DNA from: a virus
Virus record (IMG/VR): IMGVR_UViG_3300008266_000296
Span: 1-31,132 of that record
Length of the DNA stretch: 31,132 nt
Strand: one strand, 5' to 3'
Shown here: one piece after another, positions 3,923-31,132 of the stretch
How positions within the stretch are numbered: position 1 is the first letter of the stretch
Layout of the letters: each line of letters opens with the position of its first letter
Notes under the pieces: generated by a model
The model's input: only the letters and a program-made list of their open reading frames with translations
Databases searched by the model: none
Told to the model about the DNA's origin: nothing
Translations under genes and position numbers: made by a program

Positions 3923-4034
3923 CACGCTGCGCTCCTCGTGCTCGAGGCCGACAGGGCTTGCGCCCTGCCGCCCCGAGCACCACACCAGATAGCGGCATGG
4001 TACGCCGCACCCGATGCGCCTCGCGATCGCTCAT
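3915..4034 (-). CDS. Possible 39-residue basic peptide
   Basis: A short frame that fills the otherwise empty space between the helicase stop and the next gene. Its ATG overlaps the helicase TGA (ATGA, 4031-4034) and its own TGA overlaps the next ATG by 8 bases. The peptide starts MSDREAHRVRRTMPLSGVV and is arginine-rich with one cysteine. The exact fit at both ends is the main argument; the sequence itself has no recognisable motif and the frame could be chance. Confidence 0.42.
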   Translation of the reverse strand: MSDREAHRVRRTMPLSGVVLGAAGRKPCRPRARGAQRDE

Positions 4035-5671
4035 CGCATTCCGCGCGCGCGCTTCGCCTTCGCAAGATCCCGCATCGTGGCATCATTCGCTAGACCGATT
4101 CCCTCCTGCGCGACGCGCTTGCGGAGCCACGCCGGCACGGGCGTGCGGTCGATGATCGCGGCCAGTTGCCGACGGCCGTAGCGGTCGGCGTTCTTGATGC
4201 CCAACTTGTAAGCAAAACTCACTTGTTTCTCTGACGGCGGATCCGCGAGCGTGACGGCGCGACGCTCGGTCGCGATCGCACCCGAGCCGTAGCCGTAGGG
4301 ATCCTCGTCCTGCACCGTGAACCTGGCGAGAGCGCGGAGCGCGCGGTTCTTCTCGGCTTCGCGCTTGCGCTCGATCTCGCGCTCGGCCTCGTCGATCTCG
4401 GCCATGACATCGCGCTCGACGAACTCCCCCGCCTTCGCGTCTCGCTCGCCGTCCCGGCGCATCGCCTCGATCGCTTCGAGGCGGTCGGTCGGCGCGTTCT
4501 CGTCGCCGCCGAGCACATCGCCTGCGTGTACGAGTTTGTGCCGGCCTGCGTTGCCGCAGAAGTCGATGACGAGCATCGATGGCTTCGAGCTTCTGGCGAT
4601 CGCCGCGGTGCGCTCCGCCGGCGTGGCGAGGCCGTCGATCACGCCCGGTAGCGTGCGAGTCCCGCGACCGCAAACTTGGGTATACAGAGACCTACTTTTG
4701 GTCGGTCTCATCATCGAGATGACCTCGATGCCGGGATCGTCGAAGCCTTCGGTAAGCACGGCGCAGTTGCAGAGGTAGCGGAACCTGCCGGCCTTGAAGC
4801 CGTCGAGGATCTCGCGCCGCTGCTCGGGCGGTGTCTCGCCCGACACGATCGCCGCGCTACCTGGGTCGTGGCGGTCGAGGATCTCGGCCGCGTGGCGCGC
4901 CGTCTCGACGGTCGCGCAGAAGCAGAGCGTGCGCCGCCCCTTCGCGATCTGGATCGTCGCCGACACCATGCCGTGGAGCACGGCCTCCCGTTCGAGCACG
5001 GCCGCGAGATCGCCGGCGTTCAGGTCGCCCCCAGTCGTGCGGATCGTCGATAGGTCGAGATCCTCGACCCACACGACCGACTGCCGAACGGGGCAGAGCC
5101 ACCCGTCGAGCACGCCCTCGCGGATCCCGTAGTCGAACACGCACTCGTCATACAGCGCGCCGAGCGCGCTCCCGTCCGTGCGGTCGGGCGTGGCCGTCAC
5201 GCCTAGACGCTTCACCCGGTCGCTCTGGTCGAACCATGCGGCCACCTTGCGCCACGACGCGGCTACGGAATGGTGCGCCTCGTCGAAGATCACGAGGCCA
5301 AAGTCATCCGGCTTGAACTTGTGCACGCGCAGTCCCTTTCCGCGCTTGGCCGTGAGCGTCTGCACCGTGCCGACCACGATCGGCGGCGGGAGCGTCACGA
5401 GCGAGTGCTCGGGACTGGCCTCCTCGGCCATCTCGACACCGACCTCGCACGCGCACACGCGCTCCAGAGCGCGCACCGCTTGCTTCACGAGTTCCTTCGT
5501 GTGAGCTACAACGAGGACTCGACGCTTGCGCTCGATCACGGCTCGCGCGATGTGGGCGAAGGTCACGGTCTTCCCGAGGCCCGTCGCCATCACCATGAGG
5601 AGCGACCTATGCCGATGCCATGCCGACATCGCCGAGGCGATCGCCTCGCTTTGGTAGGGTCGGAGTTCCAT
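4031..5671 (-). CDS. SF2 DEAH-box helicase
   Basis: A 546-residue superfamily 2 helicase. RecA-like domain 1 shows an N-terminal Q-like motif (LRPYQSEAI), Walker A MATGLGKT at 28-35, DEAH at 130-133 and TATP at 159-162. Domain 2 shows QVCGRGTR (motif VI) in the middle of the protein. The C-terminal third is charged and helical, with a cluster of Arg/Glu/Lys. Proteins of this kind in phages act in replication, recombination or branch migration and resemble the RecG/UvsW/RAD25-like group. It starts 3 bases after the ParB-domain gene stop and is coupled to a short downstream frame, so it belongs to the leftmost operon. Confidence 0.92.
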   Translation of the reverse strand: MELRPYQSEAIASAMSAWHRHRSLLMVMATGLGKTVTFAHIARAVIERKRRVLVVAHTKELVKQAVRALERVCACEVGVEMAEEASPEHSLVTLPPPIVVGTVQTLTAKRGKGLRVHKFKPDDFGLVIFDEAHHSVAASWRKVAAWFDQSDRVKRLGVTATPDRTDGSALGALYDECVFDYGIREGVLDGWLCPVRQSVVWVEDLDLSTIRTTGGDLNAGDLAAVLEREAVLHGMVSATIQIAKGRRTLCFCATVETARHAAEILDRHDPGSAAIVSGETPPEQRREILDGFKAGRFRYLCNCAVLTEGFDDPGIEVISMMRPTKSRSLYTQVCGRGTRTLPGVIDGLATPAERTAAIARSSKPSMLVIDFCGNAGRHKLVHAGDVLGGDENAPTDRLEAIEAMRRDGERDAKAGEFVERDVMAEIDEAEREIERKREAEKNRALRALARFTVQDEDPYGYGSGAIATERRAVTLADPPSEKQVSFAYKLGIKNADRYGRRQLAAIIDRTPVPAWLRKRVAQEGIGLANDATMRDLAKAKRARGMR

Positions 5672-5674
5672 CGG

Positions 5675-6541
5675 TCACCCTCCGATCCCGCGAAGCACTT
5701 GAGCGCGCATCTTGGAGATCCATCCGAGGTTGCCGCACGCGGGGCATCCGCCGCCCTTGCACTTTGGGCACGGCCCCGCCGGCCGAGCGCGGTCGATCGA
5801 GAGCCGGAGGTCGCGCCAGTATTGATCCATCGTCCCGATGTGGATCCCGGATCCCGCCTCCTCGGCGGCGATGCGGTCGGCCTCGGCTCGCCACCGCTCC
5901 AGTCCCTTCAGCAGCACCCCGATCCGGGCGCGTGCGTGCGCGATGCGCTCGTCGAGCGTGACGGGTGGCCCTGCGGGAGCCTCGGACTCGGAAGGCTCCA
6001 GATCGCCTCCTAGCGGCTCGGTGTCCTCGACCTCGTCGGCGTGGAAATCCTCCTCGACCCCGTAAGAGTGGCAACCGTTGCCACTCCTATCGGCTTCGAT
6101 AGGTTTCCCGGAGGCGGCATCGTCGATCGAGCGGCGCATCTTGGCGACCATCGTGTGGCTCACGCCGACATGGGCGGCGACCTCGCGGTCGCTCGCGCCG
6201 GGTCGGAGCAGGAGCGCGGCCTCGACCGCCAGTCGCTTGGACTCGTTCGAGCGGCGCAGGCCGTGCGTGGCGTTCGCCGCACACGCGATCCATTGCGCCT
6301 CCTCGATCGTGCCCGTGCCGATCACCGTCGCGAGGATGTCACGAGCCTCCGCGCGCGAGTGCGCGTAGTACCGATGGAATCCATCGACGAGCACGAACCG
6401 ACGGCCGACCGCGTACACGGCCACCGCCGGCAACTGGTCGAGTACCTCGGCGTACTCGGCGACCACGGACTCATCGATCCGCTCGCGCATCTGCGTCCCT
6501 GCGTCCAACACGATCTTCGATAGTGCGATCCGTTCCGGCAT
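5675..6541 (-). CDS. ParB/Srx-domain protein with HTH and zinc-knuckle
   Basis: A 288-residue protein. Residues 5-95 form a ParB N-terminal domain with the DGFHRYYA box at 53-60. Residues 117-140 (SDREVAAHVGVSHTMVAKMRRS) read as a helix-turn-helix. An acidic linker follows, then a helical segment, and a C-terminal CPKC...CPAC knuckle (C258, C261, C266, C269) like one half of a DnaJ zinc finger. No ParA partner is visible, so a role as DNA-binding regulator is more likely than classic partition. AGGAGAG precedes the ATG at 6541. Its coding sequence contains a 21-base palindrome (6066-6086) whose core also occurs in the origin-like gap. A 17-base palindrome lies 28-44 bases upstream of the start. 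Confidence 0.85.
   Translation of the reverse strand: MPERIALSKIVLDAGTQMRERIDESVVAEYAEVLDQLPAVAVYAVGRRFVLVDGFHRYYAHSRAEARDILATVIGTGTIEEAQWIACAANATHGLRRSNESKRLAVEAALLLRPGASDREVAAHVGVSHTMVAKMRRSIDDAASGKPIEADRSGNGCHSYGVEEDFHADEVEDTEPLGGDLEPSESEAPAGPPVTLDERIAHARARIGVLLKGLERWRAEADRIAAEEAGSGIHIGTMDQYWRDLRLSIDRARPAGPCPKCKGGGCPACGNLGWISKMRAQVLRGIGG
6066..6086. repeat. Perfect palindrome inside the ParB-domain gene (copy 1)
   Basis: Ten-base arms flank a single central base: GAGTGGCAAC at 6066-6075 and GTTGCCACTC at 6077-6086. It encodes SGNGCHS in a low-conservation linker of the ParB-domain protein. The 18-base sequence GTGGCAACCGTTGCCACT recurs exactly at 12703-12720 in an intergenic region. With almost no loop, it looks like a dimer-binding site rather than an RNA hairpin. 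Confidence 0.75.
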
Positions 6542-6568
6542 GGTGTCTCTCCTTGTGGTGCTAGTGCC

Positions 6569-6585
6569 TCGTGCATCCTGCACGA
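6569..6585. promoter_or_regulatory. Operator-like palindrome upstream of the ParB-domain gene
   Basis: TCGTGCATCCTGCACGA has perfect 7-base arms around a 3-base centre. It lies 28-44 bases upstream of the start codon and just downstream of a weak -10-like box, the usual place for an autoregulatory operator. A weaker relative (GTGCA-n5-TGCAC) lies at 6795-6809 in the same gap. Confidence 0.5.
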
Positions 6586-20346: not shown

Positions 20347-20793
20347 TCAGGTCGAGGAGGTGAAGCCGCCAGTCACGCGGACGGTGAGGTCGGCCTCGAC
20401 CGCGCCATCGACTCCGGCCGAGACATTGAACGAGGTGACATAGCCCGAGAAGGCCAACTCGAAGCCGCCCGTGCCCGTGTTCGGGCCGAACCGGATCGCG
20501 AATTTGCGGTAGTCCGCTCCGTTCGCGTAGGAGGACGGGTTGAGTGCGCCAGTCGAACCGAGCAGGCCCACAGCGTAGGACGGAGCGAAGAGCGTCACGG
20601 AGATCGTGCCGCTGTCCTTCGTGCCGCCGATGAAGGACTTCACGGTTGCCGACAGAGCCGATGTATCGATCTCGGCGATCGAGATGCCGTCGAGGGAGAT
20701 CGACTTCACCTCGGCGAGATCGGTGTTCACCGTGCCGCCAGAGCCGACGGTCGATGCGTAGCGGAAGAGGGATCCGGGTGCGACGATTGCCAT
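20347..20793 (-). CDS. Major tail tube protein paralogue B (148 aa)
   Basis: A 148-residue protein with EVKSISLDGISIAEIDTSAL, TVKSFIGGTKDSGTISVTLFAP and a C-terminal VDGAVEADLTVRVTGGF. This is the lambda gpV-like tube fold pattern. It closely parallels the protein encoded next door at 20798-21187, motif for motif, so the two genes look like tandem paralogues. It is followed by the chaperones and tape measure, as expected for the tube protein. The C-terminal half is longer than in paralogue A by about 20 residues. Confidence 0.85.
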   Translation of the reverse strand: MAIVAPGSLFRYASTVGSGGTVNTDLAEVKSISLDGISIAEIDTSALSATVKSFIGGTKDSGTISVTLFAPSYAVGLLGSTGALNPSSYANGADYRKFAIRFGPNTGTGGFELAFSGYVTSFNVSAGVDGAVEADLTVRVTGGFTSST

Positions 20794-20797
20794 GGGT

Positions 20798-21187
20798 TCA
20801 GCTCCAGGTGATTGCGGAAGTGAGCTTGATGGTAGCGGATGCGGTCACGGCCCCATCCTGCTCCGCCGAGATCGAGAGGTTCGTGCAGATGCCGTCGAAG
20901 CTGGCGGAGAGAACGCCGGCGGAGAACCCAATACCGTAAGTGGTGGGAGTGCTGTCTCCGCCGACAGGGTTCAAAGCCGCGTTGATGTCGGCATAGTTAG
21001 CCGGCGCGAAGAAGTCGATCGTGAGCGTGCCCGCTTCAAGCGCGCCCATGATGTATTCCTTGTTCGTGCTCGTGAGGTTCGTGATGTCGATCTCGGTCAA
21101 CGAGGAGCCGCCGACAGAGATGTTGGTGACCTCGGCAATCGTGGTCGCGCCGATTAGCAAGGTCGTGTTGTATGCAGAGAGTGCCAT
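20798..21187 (-). CDS. Major tail tube protein paralogue A (129 aa)
   Basis: A 129-residue protein with EVTNISVGGSSLTEIDITNL, TNKEYIMGALEAGTLTIDFFAP, NAALNP and the terminal QDGAVTASATIKLT. Each block has a counterpart in paralogue B, so both share the tube fold. Both could polymerise into the tail, or one may be a decoration or terminator variant. The ATG at 21187 is 12 bases after the tail terminator gene; the stop is 4 bases before paralogue B. Confidence 0.83.
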   Translation of the reverse strand: MALSAYNTTLLIGATTIAEVTNISVGGSSLTEIDITNLTSTNKEYIMGALEAGTLTIDFFAPANYADINAALNPVGGDSTPTTYGIGFSAGVLSASFDGICTNLSISAEQDGAVTASATIKLTSAITWS

Positions 21188-21199
21188 GGGTGTACCTCG

Positions 21200-21643
21200 T
21201 TAGGAGTGCATCGAGACTACCTCTAGGCTCGCCAGATACAAACCGTGCGTGGCACCATCTGCGGGCGGTTGGTAGTCGGTCTGGATCGTCGAGACCCGGC
21301 TCGACTTCACGGAAATCTTCAGGGTCGGCCCGGAGTAGAAGTCCTGCGCCCAGTCGGCGAAGATCGCTTGCGCCTTCTGGGCGATGTCCACGGAGACCTT
21401 CTTGTCGAGCGCGAGGCAATGGAGCGACACGCTCGACCGGGTGAGGGTCGGCACGCCGGAGAGCACGAGGTACGGCGCGCTTGAGTTCAACTCGTACACG
21501 ATCGCCGGGAGCGACCCATTGTCCTCCCGGAGTTCCGGGTAGATCCGCACCGGGTTCGTGCCGATGATCGAGGTAAGGCTCGCCGTGGCGGCGACCTTGG
21601 CCTTGATCGCGGTCTCGATGTTCCAGACCGTTTGTGCGCTCAC
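21200..21643 (-). CDS. Tail terminator or completion protein, DUF3168-like (147 aa)
   Basis: A 147-residue protein with the layout of gpU-like tail terminators: an N-terminal helix followed by LTSIIGTNPVRIYPELREDNGSLPAIVYEL (about 23-52), central strands, and a helix containing ADIAQKAQAIFADW-like sequence. Such proteins cap the tail tube and stop its growth. It sits between the neck protein and the tube proteins. It starts at a GTG coupled to the previous stop. Confidence 0.8.
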   Translation of the reverse strand: MSAQTVWNIETAIKAKVAATASLTSIIGTNPVRIYPELREDNGSLPAIVYELNSSAPYLVLSGVPTLTRSSVSLHCLALDKKVSVDIAQKAQAIFADWAQDFYSGPTLKISVKSSRVSTIQTDYQPPADGATHGLYLASLEVVSMHS

Positions 21644-22209
21644 GATTGGTCCTTACTGGGGGCCGACTTGATATTGCCCCACGCGTTGATGAAGTCGGCG
21701 AACTCCTGCACCGCCGTCGCCTCGGCCCCCGGCTTGAGCCGTTTGAAGAGCCGGAAGAAGATCCACTTTCCGGGGATGTCCTTCTTCCCCTTCACCCATC
21801 CGCGCATCCGGCCCTTGCGGACGATCGAGAACCCCTTCTCGATGAGCCGGCCATAGAACGCCCCGCTCTTCCCGGTAACGCCGATACGGCGACCGATGTA
21901 GAGCCGACGCTGCTTCGAGCCGAGCGGGATCACGGCGATCGCCGTCGTGACCTTGGCGCGCGCTAGACCTGGCGAGACCATGCGGCCGCGCCTCATGTAC
22001 GGCCAGAGACGATCGCCGGGGAAGCCCTTGTCCGTGTTCGTCGCGAGCGACCCGACCTCGGAGCGCATGGCGGCGGCGATGCGTTCGAGCGTCCGGGTCG
22101 CCACGCGCTCGATGGTCGCCTTCTTGAGGTTCTCGTCCATCTTCTTGAAGGCCGCGACGAGTTCCTTTCCGCCGGACAGGTTGACGCTCTCGAAGAACTG
22201 TTGCGACAT
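21640..22209 (-). CDS. HK97 gp10-like neck protein (189 aa)
   Basis: A 189-residue basic protein. The N-terminal LSGGKELVAAFKKMDENLKKATIERVATRTLERI pattern (residues 11-44) is typical of HK97 gp10/lambda gpZ-like tail completion proteins. The central part is rich in Arg, Gly and Lys (GRRIGVTGKSGAFYGRLIEKGFSIVRKGRMRGW). It likely joins heads and tails. It is 1-base overlapped with the adaptor gene stop and 4-base overlapped with the terminator gene. Confidence 0.8.
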   Translation of the reverse strand: MSQQFFESVNLSGGKELVAAFKKMDENLKKATIERVATRTLERIAAAMRSEVGSLATNTDKGFPGDRLWPYMRRGRMVSPGLARAKVTTAIAVIPLGSKQRRLYIGRRIGVTGKSGAFYGRLIEKGFSIVRKGRMRGWVKGKKDIPGKWIFFRLFKRLKPGAEATAVQEFADFINAWGNIKSAPSKDQS

Positions 22210-22544
22210 CAGACCACCTCCCGTACGGTCACGGTCACGGTCTGCTGCCGCGCGTCGTACTGCTCGATGCCGATGATCTCGAAGGTACGCGTGTCCGTCT
22301 GGAGGCGGGCCGTTACCGACAAGAGCGAGGCATCCTTCTCGCGCATCATTATCTCGTAGGAGCGTTGGTGCGTGACCTTCTCGCGCTCGACACCCTCGGC
22401 GGCGGAGGTTCCCTTCAGGTAGCCCCAGACGATCGTGCCCACGCCGAGGAAGGACGGCTCAAGCGAGCCGAACTCGTCGAGATCCGTCGTGCGGTTGAGC
22501 ACGAGGAACGGGGTACGCATCAGGCCGGAGCGGACTCGCCTCAT
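22209..22544 (-). CDS. Head-tail adaptor/head closure protein (111 aa)
   Basis: A 111-residue protein with RSYEIMMREKDASLLSVTARLQTDTRTFEIIGIEQYDARQQTVTVTVREV in its second half, the small beta-barrel pattern of SPP1 gp16-like head closure proteins. It plugs the portal-connector channel after packaging. The ATG at 22544 overlaps the previous stop (ATGA). Synteny between the gp6-like and gp10-like genes supports the call. Confidence 0.8.
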   Translation of the reverse strand: MRRVRSGLMRTPFLVLNRTTDLDEFGSLEPSFLGVGTIVWGYLKGTSAAEGVEREKVTHQRSYEIMMREKDASLLSVTARLQTDTRTFEIIGIEQYDARQQTVTVTVREVV

Positions 22545-23161
22545 GCCATCCTCGGGATCGAGAACATCCGAGCGAGCGACTCCACGCCATGCGGGACTTC
22601 GGTGAGCGCGGTCTCGCTCCCGGTCTCGCGGGCGATGTCGTACCAGTACGCGATCGACATCAGCACGGCCTGCCGGAGTGCCTGCGGGACATTCGCCGCC
22701 GCCGCCCCGTAGCCCGCCGTGTAGGAGACCGTTACGCTTGAGATGCCCGCGTAGAACCGCGTCGCCGGCCACGCCGAGAGCGTGCTCGGGTTGATGACGA
22801 TCGAGCCTGGGAGCCTCTGGCCTTCGAGCGTGTACGCGCTTGCGCTCAAGGTCTGCGTCGCGCCCGCCGTGTCCACATAGGTGATCGAGGACACCGCCGA
22901 GACCTTGCCGGCCGGGAGCAGGATCTCGTACCCGCCGGGGAAGCGATCGAGCTTCAGGGTGTAGGTGCGATTCACGAGCGGCCGATTCGCCAGTCCCTCG
23001 ACATAGTTTCGAGCCGCCACGATGAGCGAGGTGATGAGCGTGTCTTCGTCCGTGTGCGTCACGCGCAAGTGCGCCTTCGCCTCGGCAAGCGTGACAGGCT
23101 CGACCGCCGGCGAGGTGGCCTCGACATTCGAGAGGTAGGTCGCACCATCAATCGCCAGCAT
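22541..23161 (-). CDS. gp6-like head-tail connector (206 aa)
   Basis: The 206-residue product shows PVTLAEAKAHLRVTHTDEDTLITSLIVAARNYVEGLANRPLVNRTYTL (about 21-68), the hallmark of gp6/gp15-type connectors. A Pro/Gly-rich middle and a helical end (QALRQAVLMSIAYWYDIARETG) complete the fold. The protein forms the ring below the portal. The ATG at 23161 overlaps the preceding small gene by 14 bases. Confidence 0.87.
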   Translation of the reverse strand: MLAIDGATYLSNVEATSPAVEPVTLAEAKAHLRVTHTDEDTLITSLIVAARNYVEGLANRPLVNRTYTLKLDRFPGGYEILLPAGKVSAVSSITYVDTAGATQTLSASAYTLEGQRLPGSIVINPSTLSAWPATRFYAGISSVTVSYTAGYGAAAANVPQALRQAVLMSIAYWYDIARETGSETALTEVPHGVESLARMFSIPRMA

Positions 23162-23351
23162 TGCTCGCCTCCTTCGTCGCCTTGCGGAGCCGCACACGGC
23201 CACGCTCGGGAGTCTCGATCTTCGGCTCGTCGCGCTCGACCAAGCCGGACGCAATGTATCGCGCAGCGTCGGAATCTGGAATCTCGCAGCGCATCCCTGC
23301 GGCGTACGCCGCCGCGCTCGTCGAGAAGGTCTTCAGAATGTGGACTCTCAT
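23148..23351 (-). CDS. Small head-region protein of unknown function (67 aa)
   Basis: A 67-residue protein (MRVHILKTFSTSAAAYAAGMRCEIPDSDAARYIASGLVERDE) with a short strand followed by a helix-turn segment and a basic tail. Similar short proteins often sit between capsid and connector genes in HK97-like phages. No function is known. GGAGGAGAC precedes its ATG at ideal distance; the gene is just downstream of the terminator. Confidence 0.68.
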   Translation of the reverse strand: MRVHILKTFSTSAAAYAAGMRCEIPDSDAARYIASGLVERDEPKIETPERGRVRLRKATKEASNAGD

Positions 23352-23360
23352 GTCTCCTCC

Positions 23361-23394
23361 AAAGGAAAGAGGGCGAGCCTTGCGGCCCGCCCTC
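23361..23394 (-). terminator. Intrinsic terminator after the capsid genes
   Basis: On the minus strand GAGGGCGGGCC (23394-23384), GCAA loop, GGCTCGCCCTC (23379-23369) form an 11-base stem with one G-U pair, followed by TTTCCTTT (23368-23361). It lies 23 bases past the stop of the larger capsid gene. Partial termination here would give more capsid than connector mRNA. The gap 23352-23416 holds nothing else. Confidence 0.82.
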
Positions 23395-23416
23395 GTTTCA
23401 TCCGACCATCCACCTA

Positions 23417-24682
23417 TCAGGTGTTGTCATCCTTCAGAGCGCGGAACGCATCGGAGCGCACGACCTTCGCGTCGAGGCGCATCTCGCCGAGGTAGCCGAT
23501 CTGGCCGTTGCCGGCGTACAGTTCGTTGAGCACCTGCACGCTCATGCCCGTGCGCTGCGCGAGCACCATGTGCTGGAAGTCACCGATGACCGCGTGGATC
23601 TGGTCGTTGACATTGCCGAGCGCGGGTGCCCACGGCGTGACATAGACCGGGATTCCGAGCAGACGGTCGGGCGTGCCCGCCTGGAAGGAAGGCTCCCAGA
23701 GGTACGGCACGCTCAAGTGGCCGGCCGAGCCGATGACCTTCTCGGTCAACTTGCGGACGGCCGTCAGGAACGACTGGCTCGTGACGATCGCGCAGCTCGG
23801 CGACTTCAGATACTTCATCGGCAGGCTGTAGACCCAGTCGATGAGTTCGTCGGAGGTGAGCGTGCCGTCGGTCGCGAGGGTAGTCGCGGTGCCGAGCGTG
23901 GCGTTCTTCAAGCCTTCCGGCTTGTTCGTGCCGTTGCCGTGCCACAACTGGTACTCGATCGACTGGCCGAAGAGGCGACCCATGCGCTGCGCGACCATGC
24001 TCTCGACGCTGAAGTCAGCACCGCGAGCAGGAGCGTCCTGCACGAGTTCGCGCGAGACCTTGACCACGCGGCGCAGCGAGTTGCCCGTGAAGGTCTTGTT
24101 CGCGAAGGTCGGCGTGTACTCATCGACCGCACCACCTTCGCCGGCCCAGCCCTCGCCGTCGAGTTCGGTCGAGAGGAAGTCGGCTTCGAGCGTGAAGTTG
24201 GTCGTGAAGTTGCCGACATCGATCTTGCGGCACAGGTTGTAGATCGAGGTCTCCTGCTCGACGCTCTTCTGCAACTGCGCGTAGAACCCGGCCGACGGGA
24301 GGTACTGGCCGTCGCCCGAGCCTGCGGCGATCGCGCGAGTGTCGAAGTCGCGGCGGTGGCCGTTCTTCAGGTAGTCGGCGAACCGCATCTCGTACTGCTC
24401 GCCGATCTGCGGAGCGAACGAGCGAGTCTCGACGCGGGCCGGAGCCTCACGCTCGACCACGACCACGCCGTGCGAACCCTTGGCGGCGCGCGCGTTCAGG
24501 TCGGCGATCATGTCGCGACGCTTGGCGAGCGCGTCGTACTGCTTGCTCTTCTCCTCGTACTTGGCCTGCATCTCGGCGGCGGCCTCTTCGGTCGCTCCCT
24601 CCATGCCTGCCACCATCTCCTGCATCTCCGCGTAGAGAGCACCCATCTTCTCGACGAGGCCCTTGTAAGTGTCACCGTTCAT
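23417..24682 (-). CDS. HK97-fold major capsid protein 2, with delta domain (421 aa)
   Basis: A 421-residue classical HK97-type capsid protein. Residues 1-about 75 are a charged coiled coil (delta scaffold domain), removed by the prohead protease in relatives. The mature part starts near FADYLKNGHRRDFDTRA (residues 102-118), followed by the P-domain and SRELVQDAPARGADFSVESMVAQRMGRLFGQSIEYQLWHGNGTNKPEG, a standard pattern, and a C-terminal A-domain. It forms the shell. The ATG at 24682 lies 13 bases after the first capsid gene. A strong terminator follows. Confidence 0.93.
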   Translation of the reverse strand: MNGDTYKGLVEKMGALYAEMQEMVAGMEGATEEAAAEMQAKYEEKSKQYDALAKRRDMIADLNARAAKGSHGVVVVEREAPARVETRSFAPQIGEQYEMRFADYLKNGHRRDFDTRAIAAGSGDGQYLPSAGFYAQLQKSVEQETSIYNLCRKIDVGNFTTNFTLEADFLSTELDGEGWAGEGGAVDEYTPTFANKTFTGNSLRRVVKVSRELVQDAPARGADFSVESMVAQRMGRLFGQSIEYQLWHGNGTNKPEGLKNATLGTATTLATDGTLTSDELIDWVYSLPMKYLKSPSCAIVTSQSFLTAVRKLTEKVIGSAGHLSVPYLWEPSFQAGTPDRLLGIPVYVTPWAPALGNVNDQIHAVIGDFQHMVLAQRTGMSVQVLNELYAGNGQIGYLGEMRLDAKVVRSDAFRALKDDNT

Positions 24683-24695
24683 GTTGTTCCTTTGC

Positions 24696-25763
24696 TTATG
24701 AGGCGGACTTGATTGCGACGATCGCCTTGTTGTCGATCAGGTTCCCGCCCACGCGGACGGTCGCACGAAGAACCACTTGGCCAGTAGCCGCGCGCACCTC
24801 GTTGAGCCGCTCCACCTGGAAGCCGCTCGTGTGCATCGCGAGCACATATCGAGACAGATCGACGGCGACGACTCCACGCTCACTCGCAGCGTCGTACTCT
24901 GCCTGATAGTTGCTATACGAGTTGATGAAAGCCGGAAGCCCGAACACGGATCCGATCGATCCGGGAACCGTCGCTGCTCGCAGGAAAGCTTGCGACTGGA
25001 CGAAGCCGTCGTTCGCTCCCTTGCGGTTGTAGATCCACACGGCGTTCGGCATCGCCGACGGTCGCAACTTCATCAGAGCGGCCGGATAGTTGTAGCCGTT
25101 GATCGCGAAGTTGCTCGCGTCCTCGATGTGCACCTCGTTGACGGGCGAGAATGCGTCGGATGAGTTGTAGAAGAGCGGGTAGTTCAGGACTCCCTGCATC
25201 TCCTTCTTCGAGTTCGAGTTGAGGCCCGGATCTCCGACGAGGATCTGACGCTCGACTTCGGCCTGCAACTTGCGAACGAGGAAGTCGCGCAGCACGGTCT
25301 CCGCGCTAACGCTACCGATCGACTCCTCCACGAGTTCCTTCGAGACGATCATGTTCACGCCAATCTCGTGAAGATCGATCGCGCGCTGCTCGTAGTTCAT
25401 GTCGAAGTTGGTCGGGACGGCTCCCGAGGAAAGCCTCCATCGAGGAAGCACGAACGAGCCGGCCTCATCGACACGCGTACCTTCCTCGTCCGAGCTCATG
25501 CGGTCGCCAGTCTCGAAGGCATCGTCGTAGTGGCTCACGGTCAACTTGTTCGAGGTCACCTCGACCTTGCGAACGCGACCGAGCACCCAAGAGGTCTGCA
25601 ACGACTCGGTGAAGAACGAGGCCCAATCCTGCGGCGCGAGGCTCGACGATGCGCCCGTGACTCCACGGGCCTCGTAGAGAGTCTGCGCGTCCGCGCTGCT
25701 GATCGCGGCGGGGCCGCGGGAGAGATAGCGAAGGAACGCTTCGCGGTGTCGAGTCTCGCTCAT
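24696..25763 (-). CDS. HK97-fold major capsid protein 1, without delta domain (355 aa)
   Basis: A 355-residue protein with HK97 capsid features: P-domain strands, VSKELVEESIGSVSAETVLRDFLVRKLQAEVERQILVGDP, GVLNYP and A-domain GSVFGLPAFINS. It starts MSETRHREAFLRYLSRGP, which lines up with the beginning of the mature part of the second capsid protein, so it lacks the N-terminal scaffold. Two full capsid proteins in tandem are unusual; mixed shells, alternative shells or a relic are possible. The ATG at 25763 is preceded by AGGAT. The upstream in-frame extension to 25862 overlaps the protease gene and is unlikely. Confidence 0.87.
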   Translation of the reverse strand: MSETRHREAFLRYLSRGPAAISSADAQTLYEARGVTGASSSLAPQDWASFFTESLQTSWVLGRVRKVEVTSNKLTVSHYDDAFETGDRMSSDEEGTRVDEAGSFVLPRWRLSSGAVPTNFDMNYEQRAIDLHEIGVNMIVSKELVEESIGSVSAETVLRDFLVRKLQAEVERQILVGDPGLNSNSKKEMQGVLNYPLFYNSSDAFSPVNEVHIEDASNFAINGYNYPAALMKLRPSAMPNAVWIYNRKGANDGFVQSQAFLRAATVPGSIGSVFGLPAFINSYSNYQAEYDAASERGVVAVDLSRYVLAMHTSGFQVERLNEVRAATGQVVLRATVRVGGNLIDNKAIVAIKSAS

Positions 25764-25795
25764 ATCCTTATCCTCGCATCTTTGGGGGTCGAAGG

Positions 25796-26683
25796 TCAAC
25801 GCTTGGGGCCAAGCCAGATCCGCCGGCGAACCGTCGCCGGCACGGGCGCGCTCGCCGTCCATAGGTCGAACGAGCGGCGATCGACCACAAGGTCGGTAGC
25901 CGGGTTCGCCGGGAAGGTCACGGCCGAGACCTCGTGGAGTTCGAGATCCTCGATCATCCGGTGCACCTTGCCGTCCCGCTCCTCGAAGCGATCCGAGCGC
26001 ACGATGAAGCCGAAGGACATCGCCGAGACCACGCCCGAGCGCACCGCGACGCGAGCGTCTCGGCCAACCTGGGTGTCGATCGGCTCCATCTCGACCACGA
26101 GGCCGTGCTCGTCCTCGGCGAGCCGGAGGCTCCCGGCCGTCGTGCGAGCGATCGGCATCGATGCGTCGTGGTTCCAGAGCGCGACCACATCAGGCTTCTC
26201 TCGGAGCGTCCGCTCGAACGCGCCGCGCACGATGATCTCGTGAGCGTATCCGATGGGATACGGGGTCTCGGTCACGCTCGCGTAGCCTCGGAGGATCTCC
26301 CGGCCATCGTCCGCCCGCACTTCCATCGCCTGCCCGTAGCGTCGCTCCATGATGTCGCCTCCTGCGCGGTCTACGCGCTCCAGAATGTTCCGAGCAAAGG
26401 CCCATCCGGGATCTCCGCCCCAGAGTGCCCACGCGATCCGGCCGGCCGACGGGAAGCCTTCCTCGCCCGGCACCCACCCTTGGCCCTGCTTGTCCACCTC
26501 GTGCCGCGCGAAGTACGAGGCCATGCGCTGCACCGTGTCGATCGAGAGCGCGCGCCCGTTGGCGATGTCACGCGCTCGGGCGACCCCGACCTCCGTCCCG
26601 CCGCGCCCGTGCTCGCGCCGCCACGCGAGGCCACGCTCGGCCTCCTCGCGCATCCCGGCGTTAGGCTCGAAGGAGTCAGCCAC
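25796..26683 (-). CDS. HK97 prohead protease with N-terminal extra domain (295 aa)
   Basis: A 295-residue protein. The C-terminal two thirds is an S78-type prohead protease: GYASV at 133-137, H172 in WNHD, S223 in VSAMSFGF and E251 in LHEVSAVTFPAN, which cuts delta domains and itself inside the prohead. The N-terminal 110 residues (ARDIANGRALSIDTVQRMASYFARHEVDKQGQGW...GFPSAGRIAWALWGGD) form a separate conserved phage domain that I have seen attached to capsid-region proteins but whose role is not known to me. A GTG start overlaps the previous gene by 8 bases. Confidence 0.88.
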   Translation of the reverse strand: MADSFEPNAGMREEAERGLAWRREHGRGGTEVGVARARDIANGRALSIDTVQRMASYFARHEVDKQGQGWVPGEEGFPSAGRIAWALWGGDPGWAFARNILERVDRAGGDIMERRYGQAMEVRADDGREILRGYASVTETPYPIGYAHEIIVRGAFERTLREKPDVVALWNHDASMPIARTTAGSLRLAEDEHGLVVEMEPIDTQVGRDARVAVRSGVVSAMSFGFIVRSDRFEERDGKVHRMIEDLELHEVSAVTFPANPATDLVVDRRSFDLWTASAPVPATVRRRIWLGPKR

Positions 26684-26891
26684 CGCCCAACTCCTTCATG
26701 GTTTCCGCAAGCAGGAGATCGATCAAGGCCGCATCGGTTTCGGCACTCTTCGCTTCCTCGTCTTCATCCGCGAGGCTATCGAGAATGCCCTCAAGTTCGG
26801 TAGCGAGCTTGTCGTTCTGGGCATCGATGCGATCGAGTTCAGCGTTGAACTCGTCCTCTGCTTTCTCGATTGAGGTCTTCTTCTTGCTCAT
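26676..26891 (-). CDS. Small acidic coiled-coil protein (71 aa)
   Basis: A 71-residue, highly acidic protein with heptad-like leucine and isoleucine spacing (EKAEDEFNAELDRIDAQNDKLATELEGILDSLADEDEEAK). It may be a scaffold-like or portal-associated factor; no family is recognised. Its ATG overlaps the portal stop (ATGA). The composition is more AT-rich than most of the window, like the end of the portal gene. Confidence 0.6.
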   Translation of the reverse strand: MSKKKTSIEKAEDEFNAELDRIDAQNDKLATELEGILDSLADEDEEAKSAETDAALIDLLLAETMKELGGG

Positions 26892-28996
26892 GGATACTTT
26901 CCCCACTTGGCTTTGAACTCTTCGCGCATCGCTTGCGTTCGAGCCTTCGACGCGGCCAACTGCGCTTTCAGTTCATCCACACGCTTGCGATCCTGATCGA
27001 GTCGAGCCTTGCTTTCGGTTGACTTCTTCGCCGCCTTGGATGCAGCCTTGTCCGGGCCGTCTGAGTGAATGCGATCAAGTGCCTTCCTCACGCCATCGGG
27101 GTCGGTCTTTGCAGATGGAATCGATGCCGTCTTTGCATCAAAGTCCGCCATGATTTTAGCGAAAGCAGCATCGAGCGACTTTCGCATAGCGGCCTGTTTG
27201 TCTGCAAAGTCTGCTTTCAGTTTTTCCGTGCTCGCCTTGAGGGAATCGATCTTGGCTTGAGTCTTCTTGATCTTTGACTCTACCTTATTCACTTCGCGAT
27301 CGGCTTCGGCTTGCGTGCCCTCGATGCGATCGCGCAGACGCTCTCGTCGGCGACCAGTTGCAGCCTTCGACTTCGCCTTCCCAGACTTCGAGGCGGCAGG
27401 CTTCGATGCCGCAGGCTTCGCGCCATCGCCGCCGCCTTCGCCACCGCCTCCGGCGCAGTCGTTGCCCTCTTGGAATCCTCCCTCCCCTGTCCCGCAGTTG
27501 CGAACCGAGCGGCCTTCGCTGCACTTCGAGATCGCGATAGCCACGGCTTGATCCTGCGGATAGCCCTCGTCGAGTAGGGTCGGGATCTTGTCCTCGATGC
27601 ACGCGCGGGTCGAATCGTCGAACGCGGCGAGCATCTCCATCCATCCCTCGCACGAGCATCGGCCCTCGCTGCGCGCCATCGGAGCCGTGGCAGGAGCCGG
27701 AGCGGTCGCCGGCACGGGAGCCGGGGCCGTGAGCGGCGACTGGTCGCCAGACTTGCCGGCGTTCGGATCCACGATCGCCAGGTTCACGGGCGCGCGAGCC
27801 ATATCGCCGCCGTCGATCGGCGCGTAGTTCTCGCGCTCGCGCACCTCGTTGATCGTGAGGAAGCCATTGTTGAGCGCGGTCGAGTACGCCGCGAATCGCG
27901 ACGCGAGGTCGCCTCGGAGCAGCGCGTCGAACGAGATATGCGTCTCGATCGGCTCGCCCTCGCGCACGAGCTTCCGCGCGCACTCCTCCTCGAAACGCGA
28001 GGCCCAGTTCGCGAGGCAATGCTTCACGAACTCGGCGTCGGCCTGCTCGGCACTCGCGTACGAGGTCTTCGTCGCGTCGCCGACCATGTGCACCGGGACA
28101 TTGAACGCGGCCGCAATCTGCGACCGACAGAACGAGCGCAGTTCGACGAGTTTCGCTTCCTCGGGATCGACCGAGACCTTCTCCCACGAGTAGCCGCTTT
28201 CCAGGATCGCCACGCGGCCGGCGTTCTCCGCGCCGCCCGTGATCGATTGCCACGACTGGCGTAGCCGCTTGAGTGCTTCCTCGGTGAGCGTGCCCGTCAC
28301 CTTGATGAGGCCCGCCGGCCGTGCGCCGTTGCGGAAGAACGAAGCGACGAACTTCTCCGCCTCGAGTTCAACGCCGATGATGTTCCGCACGAGGTAGATC
28401 GGAGTCTCGCCGAGGAGACCGTCGAGGCTCGGCGCGCGGAGGTGGAAGATGTCGTACGCCTGCCACACCTGATCGGTGCTCTTCGACACGCCCCATCGCG
28501 CCGAGGTGTACGAGTAGACGGGCATCCCGTCCGGGCCGCGCGAGACCTCGACCGAGTCCGCGCGCAACTTGTGCAGGCCGACCACGCGGCCGACCGCGTC
28601 GCGCTCGATCACGGCGTAGGCGTTCCCGTAGAGGAGGCAGTCGAGGAGCATCGACTCGCGCCACACCATTGCGCCCATGTACGGGTTCGGCTCGATGTTC
28701 AGGAGCCGATAGAGCGGATGCTCGCGAGCGGGAACCGGGATCCCTCCCTCCCGGCGCATCACTCGCCACTCCATCCGCGCGACGCTCTGGGAGATGAGCC
28801 GCGTGCAGGCGTAGACCGTCGGAGCCTCCCTCGCGGCCTCCGGCGTGATCGAGCGTCCCGTGTCGGCGTAGGTCGAGATGTACGCCTGCGCCCCGCCCGG
28901 AGGCTGTCCGATCGGCGAGCGGTCGATCACCGCGCGCTCTTCGAGCGTCGGCTCGGGAGTCGGAGCGGGTCGGCGGAACCAGTCGATCAGAGCCAT
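26888..28996 (-). CDS. Portal protein with Cys-rich and coiled-coil C-terminal extension (702 aa)
   Basis: Residues 1-415 match an HK97-type portal: GRSITPEAA..PTVYACTRLISQSVARMEW (48-77), LLYGNAYAVI (121-130), FFRNGARPAGL (220-230) and GYSWEKV, ending in the crown region. Then come a Pro/Ala linker (421-441), a Cys-bearing block (C447, C449, C466, C492, C501, C514) containing CIEDKIPTLLDEGYPQDQAVAIAISKC and GTGEGGFQEGND, a Gly-rich hinge (515-525), an Ala/Lys/Ser stretch, and a Lys/Ala/Glu-rich coiled coil (about 550-700). HK97 portals are normally near 420-450 residues. The extension could act as scaffold or bind DNA. The ATG at 28996 has GAGAGG upstream and overlaps the terL stop by 10 bases. 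Confidence 0.9.
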   Translation of the reverse strand: MALIDWFRRPAPTPEPTLEERAVIDRSPIGQPPGGAQAYISTYADTGRSITPEAAREAPTVYACTRLISQSVARMEWRVMRREGGIPVPAREHPLYRLLNIEPNPYMGAMVWRESMLLDCLLYGNAYAVIERDAVGRVVGLHKLRADSVEVSRGPDGMPVYSYTSARWGVSKSTDQVWQAYDIFHLRAPSLDGLLGETPIYLVRNIIGVELEAEKFVASFFRNGARPAGLIKVTGTLTEEALKRLRQSWQSITGGAENAGRVAILESGYSWEKVSVDPEEAKLVELRSFCRSQIAAAFNVPVHMVGDATKTSYASAEQADAEFVKHCLANWASRFEEECARKLVREGEPIETHISFDALLRGDLASRFAAYSTALNNGFLTINEVRERENYAPIDGGDMARAPVNLAIVDPNAGKSGDQSPLTAPAPVPATAPAPATAPMARSEGRCSCEGWMEMLAAFDDSTRACIEDKIPTLLDEGYPQDQAVAIAISKCSEGRSVRNCGTGEGGFQEGNDCAGGGGEGGGDGAKPAASKPAASKSGKAKSKAATGRRRERLRDRIEGTQAEADREVNKVESKIKKTQAKIDSLKASTEKLKADFADKQAAMRKSLDAAFAKIMADFDAKTASIPSAKTDPDGVRKALDRIHSDGPDKAASKAAKKSTESKARLDQDRKRVDELKAQLAASKARTQAMREEFKAKWGKYP

Positions 28997-30651
28997 AGGA
29001 TTCCTCTCTCGGCGTACGGTGTCGCTTGTGATACCGTCGGCGCGGCATCGAGTGCTACCGCGAGTGCCACGATTCCCGCGACCACGGGGTCGATCTTCTC
29101 CGTCGAGCGTCGCTTGCTCGGGCGCGGGTTCGAGTTCGCGTCGAGCTCCACGACGCAGTTGGACATCGCCCAAGTGAGCACCGGGTTCCCGTCGTGCCGC
29201 AGCCGATGGTTCGTCACCATCGCCTCCCATCTCTTGGTCGGCTCGGCCATGTAGTAGTACGACTGGGGCACGCGCTTGAGCCGCAGGCCGTCCGCTTCGA
29301 GTTGCTGCGCGAGGCCGCTCGCGTTGTAGGGGTCATACCCGACCGCCTGCACCTTGTGCTCGCCGACGATCCGCAGGATCTCCCGCCGCACGAACTCGTA
29401 ATCGGTCGCGTCCCCCGGCGTGAGCCGCATATGCCCCTGCCGGCTCCAGTCGAGGTAGGGAACCTTGTCCCGCTTCTGCCGCCGCTGCGCCCCTTCCTCG
29501 GGCGCGAACGCCCACGAGCGCACCCACGCCTCATCCTTGTCGAGCCAGACCGCCGTGAGCGCGGTGAGATCGCTCGTCTCGCCCAAGTCGATCCCGAGAT
29601 AGCACGGCAGGCCGGCGAGCCGGGACTCGTCGAAGTCGAGTTTGCACTTGTCCCAGTCGGCCATGCGGAGCCATCGGTTCGAGGCGGAGACGTGCTGACA
29701 TAGGTAGTAGGTTCGGAACGGAGTCTCCATCGAGGGTTGCTCCTGCGCCTCCTTGCACTTCTCCGCGTAGTACCCCTCGTGCACCGTGTGCCCGAGACTC
29801 GGCGCGCACTTGCGCCAGGTCTCCGGACTCGTCCAATCGTCGCCGTCGCCGGCCGAGTAGACCACGGGCAGGAAGAACGGGTTGTCGATCACGCGGTCGC
29901 GCACCTTGAGCGCGTAGTCGAACATCTCGAACTCCAGACTCTCGCGCAGCGTCCCGGCGGTCGTGATCGTCACGAGCATCGGTTGCCGGCGCGCGCCCAC
30001 GCTCGTCTCGATCGCCTCCCAGAGTTCGCGCCGATTCTCCATCGCGTGAACCTCATCCGCAATGCACGCGCTCGTGTTCAGGCCGTGCGCGCTCGGAGCC
30101 TCCGAGGACATGACCTTGTACACGCCGGCCGTGCTCGGCACGATCACGCGATGCTGATAGACCTCGGTGCGGCTCTCAAGCATCGGCTCGGCGCGCACCA
30201 TCCGCTTCGCCGCCTCAAGGCATCGCCCCGCCTGCGCTCGGTCGGCCGCGATCGAGATCACCTCGGGCGTAGGCTCATCGTCCGCGAGGAGGTGATACAG
30301 CGCGAGGGCCGCGCCGAGTTCGGTCTTGCCGCACTTGCGAGGGATCAGGATGTGAACGCGCCGATACCGCCTCGTGCCGTCCGGGCGCATCCATCCGTAC
30401 GCATTCGCGATCACGGCCTTCTGCCACGGGAGCAGCACGAACGGCATCCCGGCCCAAGTGCTCGTCGTGAGCTTGCACGCGGTCTCGATGAACCGGATCA
30501 CATGGAGCGCGGCCTGCTCGTCAAAGGTGCAGTTGCCGGCGGTCGCGATCGCGTCATAGCCGGGGATCGTGTTCCACTTCGCGGCCGGGTGCTCGGCCGG
30601 CTTCTTCGGCTTACGCGCGACGCTTGGTAAAGATGTCTTCTTGCGGGGCAC
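28987..30651 (-). CDS. terL: Terminase large subunit
   Basis: A 554-residue packaging motor. The ATPase domain shows IPRKCGKTE (103-111; Walker A), CIADE with catalytic glutamate E200 (Walker B), and TTAGT (230-234; motif III). The nuclease domain shows D355 in GIDLGETSD, D440 in GYDPYNAS and D521 in KIDPVVAGIVAL. The arrangement fits the Terminase_1 family (HK97/P27-like systems). It would cut concatemers and pump DNA through the portal. The start is GTG (30651), overlapping terS by 41 bases. Confidence 0.96.
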   Translation of the reverse strand: MPRKKTSLPSVARKPKKPAEHPAAKWNTIPGYDAIATAGNCTFDEQAALHVIRFIETACKLTTSTWAGMPFVLLPWQKAVIANAYGWMRPDGTRRYRRVHILIPRKCGKTELGAALALYHLLADDEPTPEVISIAADRAQAGRCLEAAKRMVRAEPMLESRTEVYQHRVIVPSTAGVYKVMSSEAPSAHGLNTSACIADEVHAMENRRELWEAIETSVGARRQPMLVTITTAGTLRESLEFEMFDYALKVRDRVIDNPFFLPVVYSAGDGDDWTSPETWRKCAPSLGHTVHEGYYAEKCKEAQEQPSMETPFRTYYLCQHVSASNRWLRMADWDKCKLDFDESRLAGLPCYLGIDLGETSDLTALTAVWLDKDEAWVRSWAFAPEEGAQRRQKRDKVPYLDWSRQGHMRLTPGDATDYEFVRREILRIVGEHKVQAVGYDPYNASGLAQQLEADGLRLKRVPQSYYYMAEPTKRWEAMVTNHRLRHDGNPVLTWAMSNCVVELDANSNPRPSKRRSTEKIDPVVAGIVALAVALDAAPTVSQATPYAERGILWL

Positions 30652-31087
30652 TCTTTGCCTGCTCCTTCGCCGCGCCGATTCGAGCGCGACCGACTGGGGT
30701 TAGACCGAACTCGCTCATCATCCGACGAAGTCGCTCCCCATGCTCGGCGAGGATTGCGCTCCACGGGTTTCGCTTGACGGTCACCCGGTACTCGGCCTCG
30801 ACGCGAATCACCTCGCCCTCCTCGGCCAGACGCTTGCGCGCCTCCAGGTAGCGCGACCATGTGTCGCACATGAGCGCGAGCGCGTCGCGATCGCCGCTCG
30901 ATATGATCTTCATCGCGGCGATGCGAGGGATCCAATCGGCCCACGCCGCACGGCCGACATCGTCGAGCCACGCGGGACACTCGGGCAACGCCTCCTCCGC
31001 CGGCGGCTCGGACTTCGCGCGACCGGAGGCGCGCCAGTTCCCCGATAACTTCAAAGATGCCGCAGGTTTTGGCGGTCTTCCGGTCAT
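30611..31087 (-). CDS. terS: Terminase small subunit, P27 family
   Basis: A 158-residue protein with the P27-type start MTGRPPKPAASLKLSGNWRA, the Trp-rich CPAWLDDVGRAAWADWIPRI (37-56) and the C-terminal RLRRMMSEFGLTPVGRARI. The small subunit recognises the packaging site and loads TerL. The ATG is at 31087; the upstream ribosome binding site is weak. As the rightmost gene of the minus-strand operon it begins the late region. Confidence 0.92.
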   Translation of the reverse strand: MTGRPPKPAASLKLSGNWRASGRAKSEPPAEEALPECPAWLDDVGRAAWADWIPRIAAMKIISSGDRDALALMCDTWSRYLEARKRLAEEGEVIRVEAEYRVTVKRNPWSAILAEHGERLRRMMSEFGLTPVGRARIGAAKEQAKSAPQEDIFTKRRA

Positions 31088-31132
31088 GCAAGTTTCAATC
31101 GTCTACGCGTTTGGGGGGCACGCTTATCAACC
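31088..31132. other. Right end of window, upstream of terS; no gene
   Basis: Forty-five bases with an unbroken run of six C/G on the minus strand (CCCCCC near 31113-31118) and no clear promoter or ribosome binding site. In a circularised map it would adjoin positions 1-156, so the packaging site would be expected around this junction. No terminal repeat with the left end is visible. Confidence 0.4.

Follow-up and report, generated by a model that had tools for sequence, protein, structure and literature searches.

The head of the uncultured tailed phage analysed here is probably built from two proteins of the HK97 capsid family, MCP1 and MCP2, instead of the usual single protein. The two genes lie in tandem on the minus strand of a 31,132-base virus record with a G+C content of 65.5%, the whole of which was analysed and is called the window below. 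The pair is functional and is part of the head module. The arrangement that we favour, with moderate confidence, is a single HK97-fold shell in which MCP2 would form the hexamers and MCP1 the vertices; we infer the shared particle, the penton position of MCP1, and the cleavage of both proteins.

Head module and the two capsid proteins

The genes on the minus strand are arranged in the order terminase small subunit, terminase large subunit, portal, S78 prohead protease, MCP1, MCP2, connector, and head completion protein, followed by the tail genes (Table 1). A gap of 13 bases separates MCP1 from MCP2. The window yielded a single protease, a single portal, and a single connector set, and scans of the head-module proteins with Pfam and PHROG profiles brought out no distinct scaffold gene. 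Neither an exact terminal repeat of 10 to 200 bases nor a tRNA gene was found in the window, and a near-identity DNA search of the phage collection with positions 20347-31132 returned no match.

Table 1. Features of the head module and of the two capsid proteins, in window coordinates
Feature	Coordinates	Strand	Evidence
Terminase small subunit	30611..31087	-	phrog_83, E 3.2e-35
Terminase large subunit	28987..30651	-	phrog_9, E 6.2e-156
Portal protein with C-terminal extension	26888..29230	-	PF04860, E 1.1e-100
Prohead protease (S78) with extra N-terminal domain	25796..26683	-	PF04586, E 2.8e-39; phrog_80, E 1.8e-52; phrog_2859 on residues 3-106
Shine-Dalgarno-like site of MCP1	25764..25778	-	GAGGATAAGGAT directly 5' of ATG
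MCP1, 355 aa, HK97-family capsid protein without long delta; proposed vertex subunit	24696..25763	-	PF05065
MCP1 leader (residues 1-33): F..YL..G motif, candidate cleavage site after R33	25665..25763	-	Conserved motifs
Approximate MCP1 A-domain, residues 183-300, most variable region	24864..25217	-	Alignment to MCP2
MCP2, 421 aa, major capsid protein with N-terminal delta domain	23417..24682	-	PF05065, phrog_10
MCP2 delta domain, residues 1-116, with candidate cleavage after R116	24335..24682	-	Helices; conserved T115, R116, A117
Head-tail connector	22541..23254	-	PF05135, E 2.4e-10; phrog_442, E 8.2e-34
Head completion protein	22209..22772	-	PF05521, E 3.6e-06

Several neighbouring genes have features of their own. 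The C-terminal extension of the portal beyond about residue 572 (26888-27514, minus strand) gave weak matches to coiled-coil families and is lacking in relatives such as L003. The extra N-terminal domain of the protease (about 26366-26677, minus strand) matches phrog_2859, and a similar stretch was seen by eye in the proteases of L145 and L148. In L029 (2348-4815) the protease gene is split, with the N-terminal-domain match about 1.6 kb from the S78-domain match, and S78 also occurs as a separate open reading frame of 182-193 aa in L027, L028, L030, and L067. Elsewhere in the window, a ParB-like gene (5675-6583) adjoins a helicase gene (4031-5671), both on the minus strand.

The original prediction of two HK97-family capsid proteins in tandem was borne out, since both open reading frames are present on the minus strand at the coordinates given and both belong to PF05065 (cut-off 24.2 bits). 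MCP2 matched positions 3-279 of the 280 in the profile with an E-value of 3e-41 (142.1 bits) and MCP1 matched positions 64-279 with an E-value of 1.3e-14 (54.7 bits); the corresponding E-values against phrog_10 were 3.7e-57 and 1e-11. All 24 MCP1 sequences scanned, including that of the window, matched PF05065 at E<=0.01, and one of them had an extra weak match to SU10_MCP (E 0.0045). At E<=0.1, the window MCP1 matched no Pfam family beyond PF05065, hence none of the T4 type, and it is not assigned to the gp23/gp24 sequence families. The nearest solved structure to MCP2 by profile was the major capsid protein of RcGTA (Rcc01687; 6tb9; E 1.4e-21). The MCP1 profile had no match to PDB sequences at E<=1, and MCP1 had no match to plasmids at E<=1e-5. 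AlphaFold models of both proteins were poor (mean pLDDT 39.5 for MCP1 and 42.6 for MCP2) and unsuited to interface modelling; among the 50 rows listed per search, Foldseek searches with the low-confidence MCP1 model gave mainly HK97-fold capsids and encapsulins, with low TM scores by query length (only 0.19-0.35).

That only one of the two carries a delta domain was likewise upheld. A long helical N-terminus was predicted for MCP2 only (helices at residues 6-27 and 32-69), and this block had pLDDT values of 72-82 for residues 11-60 in a model that was otherwise poor. The combination that defines the self-scaffolded delta-domain class, a long N-terminal helical delta and a prohead protease, was found for MCP2 only; MCP1, with a leader of only about 33 residues, falls outside the class. 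A hidden delta in frame upstream of MCP1 was considered and rejected. The MCP1 frame of the window is open further upstream, for 497 codons in all and for 388 aa from an ATG at 25862, but the open stretch in two relatives is no longer than 364 and 371 codons, and thus an in-frame hidden delta is not a conserved feature. The start site and the leader are conserved, GAGGATAAGGAT being the same or similar in most relatives with a complete 5' end.

The best BLASTP segment between MCP1 and MCP2 had 26% identity over 85 residues, and hhalign aligned profile positions 9-342 of MCP1 with 99-416 of MCP2 over 297 columns (probability 97.8%, E 8.8e-13). In the latter alignment F10..YL..G17 of MCP1 corresponds to F101..YL..G108 of MCP2, and the F..YL..G motif was present in every distinct intact MCP1 (31/31) and every distinct MCP2 (33/33). 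The same 31 MCP1 sequences all contain E-x-R-[GA]-V with the arginine at position 32-34. In MCP2, T115-R116-A117 was invariant in both alignments made, including one of 26 sequences (A4), and [FY]DTRA was found in 31 of the 33 distinct intact sequences; T115-R116-A117 lies near the stretch aligned to the beginning of the ordered RcGTA chain, with an estimated offset relating chain numbering to protein numbering. P44 of MCP1 is paired by hhalign with P129 of MCP2, with R33 eleven residues before the former and R116 thirteen before the latter. The program itself sets R116 opposite Q27, not R33; that R33 may be the counterpart of R116 is our own reading. Cleavage after R116 of MCP2 and after R33 of MCP1, the candidate sites suggested by these motifs, would leave 305 and 322 residues, with leaders of about 116 and 33 residues, respectively. 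MCP1 had been thought to begin where the mature MCP2 would begin; this did not hold, since its F..YL..G motif aligns before the likely cleavage at R116 and the first 33 or so residues of MCP1 appear to be its own leader.

Conservation and exchange of the pair

Relatives were gathered by scanning the viral collection with each of the two proteins and with alignments of them, and by one scan of the genome collection, which gave one match, a 4.1-kb contig of a Rhodobacteraceae bin. The resulting group has 57 contigs besides the window (58 in total). Fourteen of these cannot show both genes, eight because they end inside MCP1 or at most 41 bases past it and six because they begin inside MCP2 or at most 59 bases before it. 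MCP1 lies directly upstream of MCP2 in all 44 informative contigs, which answers the earlier suggestion that related contigs be searched for the pair. Both open reading frames are intact in 35 of the 44, one gene is cut by the contig end in seven, and an open reading frame is interrupted in two (MCP1 in L068, MCP2 in L007), either of which could be an assembly error. Some sequences are near-copies, and the 41 intact MCP1 and 43 intact MCP2 genes reduce to 31 and 33 distinct DNA sequences, respectively. MCP1 identity to the window drops to about 40% among relatives. Four longer virus records searched for PF05065 had two matches each.

Both genes are under purifying selection. The dN/dS values between the window and L002 were 0.17 for MCP1 and 0.28 for MCP2, and the medians over pairs with dS between 0.05 and 1.2 were 0.42 (251 pairs) and 0.40 (459 pairs), with no pair above 0.73.

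In most of the well-studied HK97-fold phages, a single protein supplies both pentamers and hexamers. A single capsid gene was found at ten of the ten distant capsid loci with a readable neighbourhood, as judged by open reading frame list (L145, L146, L148, and L149) or by annotation (L151, L152, L153, L155, L156, and L157); L154 and L158, where there is no usable annotation, and L147 and L150 are not among the ten. PF05065 was matched in 53 of 190 and 123 of 398 bacterial genomes sampled from the class and the phylum of the Rhodobacteraceae bin, two samples that overlap and share some genomes. Neighbouring matches were judged by eye, and no bacterial genome among the matches listed had two adjacent complete ones. 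A single cluster was present among the matches listed (G465 contig 90, 252646-255598), a full capsid gene beside two C-terminal capsid pieces.

The two proteins differ in their relationships. MCP1 is 97% identical yet MCP2 only 68% identical between L061 and L058, and the converse was seen between the window and L011 (MCP1 63%, MCP2 96%). Trees of 18 paired sequences split differently, and each alignment rejected the split of the other (AU p 8e-42 and 1e-61), for groups picked after an earlier tree had been viewed. These results indicate that MCP1 and MCP2 types reassort between lineages. In a tree with outgroups, MCP1 and MCP2 each fell on one side of a branch, the outgroups were together in 22% of bootstraps, and long branches were flagged; MCP1 may or may not have originated by duplication of MCP2.

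Among 23 pairs with MCP2 at least 92% identical and MCP1 below 70%, MCP1 identity was 76% in the leader, 58% in the N-arm and E-loop, 73% in the spine, 32% in the A-domain, and 76% in the C-terminal P-domain, the regions being delimited by eye. The limits of the A-domain are what we take them to be from the alignment with MCP2 and the general HK97 layout. As a signature specific to MCP1, A-domain variability holds only in part: at matched divergence (60-70% identity), the A-domain was also the most variable of four regions in MCP2 (58% identity vs 48% in MCP1), so variability alone does not distinguish MCP1.

Proposed shell and its alternatives

In the shell that we favour, MCP2 with its delta domain would be the main subunit and form the hexamers, and MCP1, a distant relative with a short leader, would be the dedicated subunit of the pentameric vertices, as is gp24 in T4. 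The prohead protease encoded just upstream would probably trim MCP2 after R116 and MCP1 after R33. If pentamers consisted of MCP1 alone, the A-domain at the capsomer centre would be free to change without matching changes in MCP2, and the P-domain and E-loop, which would have to meet MCP2 neighbours, would change less. MCP1 has the sequence properties of such a vertex protein, namely relatedness to the main capsid protein, a shorter leader, and conservation across the group. An MCP2-hexamer, MCP1-vertex shell would explain the co-conservation of the genes, why the MCP1 leader is short, and why exchange is tolerated, and it has two solved precedents. Against it, frequent exchange could mean that MCP1 and MCP2 touch little or not at all.

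An unlikely alternative, already raised in the original prediction, is that both proteins are mixed in the hexamers (and pentamers) and that the scaffold comes from MCP2 only. In its favour, the genes are adjacent and both conserved, and the folds are related. However, intimate mixing would favour co-inheritance, and the types exchange independently, a near-identical MCP1 being found beside an MCP2 that differs by 32%; this is easier to square with each protein having its own capsomers. It is less likely still that MCP1, instead of being a regular subunit, occupies a special position or serves in assembly, for example in the capsomers around the portal or as a component of the procapsid only. 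Such a role would fit a short leader and a gene placed between those of the protease and MCP2, but MCP1 is a full-length capsid-family protein and we know of no precedent for a factor of this kind.

Two further explanations are both very improbable. Although MCP1 and MCP2 align over most of the capsid fold, as would two proteins that each build a capsid of their own, for example of different size, MCP1 is without a long delta, scans of the head-module proteins turned up no separate scaffold gene, and the single protease, portal, and connector set also speak against two alternative shells. A non-structural MCP1, either regulatory or interfering with other phages or satellites as a dominant-negative capsid subunit, has a parallel in the Ccm protein of SaPIbov5, a capsid homologue that redirects the assembly of another element in the passages available from PMC8569155; a gene for defence should be present in some relatives and absent from others, and MCP1 stays inside the head module beside MCP2 in 44/44 informative contigs. 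Duplication followed by decay of one copy, the plain alternative in the original prediction, was rejected as almost certainly wrong, the relatedness of the proteins and the two interrupted frames notwithstanding, because truncation, frameshift, and relaxed selection are not the pattern seen: 41 MCP1 open reading frames are intact, dN/dS is well below 1, and the leader motifs persist in sequences only about 40% identical to the window.

Precedents and the biology of the group

A shell of two proteins had been put forward as new biology, but it is already known. Literature searches for tailed phages with two capsid proteins surfaced T4, SaPIbov5, Tiera, and phiIN93, in a body of text where subscription journals are little covered and absence is weak evidence. 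The available passages on T4 describe hexamers of gp23 and vertices of gp24, an HK97-fold relative with about 20% identity, and give losses of 65 residues from gp23 and 10 from gp24 on processing (PMC9958956), so that in T4, as in MCP1 vs MCP2, the minor protein has a much shorter leader than the major one. T4 differs in its genome size (171 kb), its prolate head, and the presence of separate core proteins, compared with a 31-kb record and a delta-type MCP2 here. The gene order in T4 is 23 then 24, whereas the putative vertex gene of the window is upstream of the main capsid gene and has PF05065 as its sole Pfam match.

In SaPIbov5, according to the portions of PMC8569155 available, Ccm forms the pentamers and the phi12 capsid protein the hexamers of the same shells; Ccm has 355 residues, a delta domain of 87 residues, and 24% identity to the phi12 protein, and cleavage occurs after K87 in Ccm and R128 in the phi12 protein. 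The likeness is that a distant capsid homologue fills the pentamers and the main protein the hexamers, as proposed for MCP1 and MCP2. The difference is that Ccm is the protein of a satellite that redirects a different phage, and that it carries a delta, whereas both proteins here come from one phage. RcGTA, the source of the closest solved relative of MCP2, uses one major capsid protein, in contrast to the two here, in pentamers and hexamers alike, and the axial domains of its capsid proteins bear the head spikes (PMC7296036, in part). By analogy, and as a guess only, the variable A-domain of a vertex MCP1 might serve as a spike site.

Tiera, a Polaromonas podovirus, is reported to have two putative major capsid proteins after the portal and would so resemble the window, and the passage available gives no analysis of the pair (PMC9959647); no Polaromonas phage was among the 91 records matched by MCP1 in a tblastn search of a collection that may or may not include Tiera. 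Two putative capsid proteins are also mentioned for phiIN93 (PMC12154516). The 'two major capsid proteins' of PMC11445458 and PMC10635136 were discarded, being two copies of one protein in the passages available.

What is new is that this small phage group combines a delta-type main subunit with capsid genes reassorting between lineages and with more than one tail-tube gene. In the window, two tandem minus-strand open reading frames, at 20347-20793 and at 20798-21187, match phrog_158 (major tail protein) and share 35% identity; relatives whose contigs reach far enough have two or more tail-tube paralogues, and at least ten contigs have three. If true, a tube made of two or three such paralogues would parallel the capsid pair as a second case. 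Since tail-tube paralogues occur besides the capsid pair, sets of virion paralogues may be a habit of the lineage. A tentative and rather doubtful extension is that these small tailed phages (records of about 30 kb) have a virion made modular by paralogue sets, with independently reassorting capsid proteins, a swappable vertex protein whose highly variable A-domain could dock vertex spikes, a more conserved face protein, and two or three tail-tube paralogues, or, more boldly, truly mixed capsomers with the scaffold on one subunit type.

It has long been asked why T4 evolved a vertex protein of its own. If a small phage group shared that division of labour and naturally swapped its vertex gene, it could be tested which residues decide between pentamer and hexamer and, given a delta-type main subunit, whether vertices need a scaffold domain.
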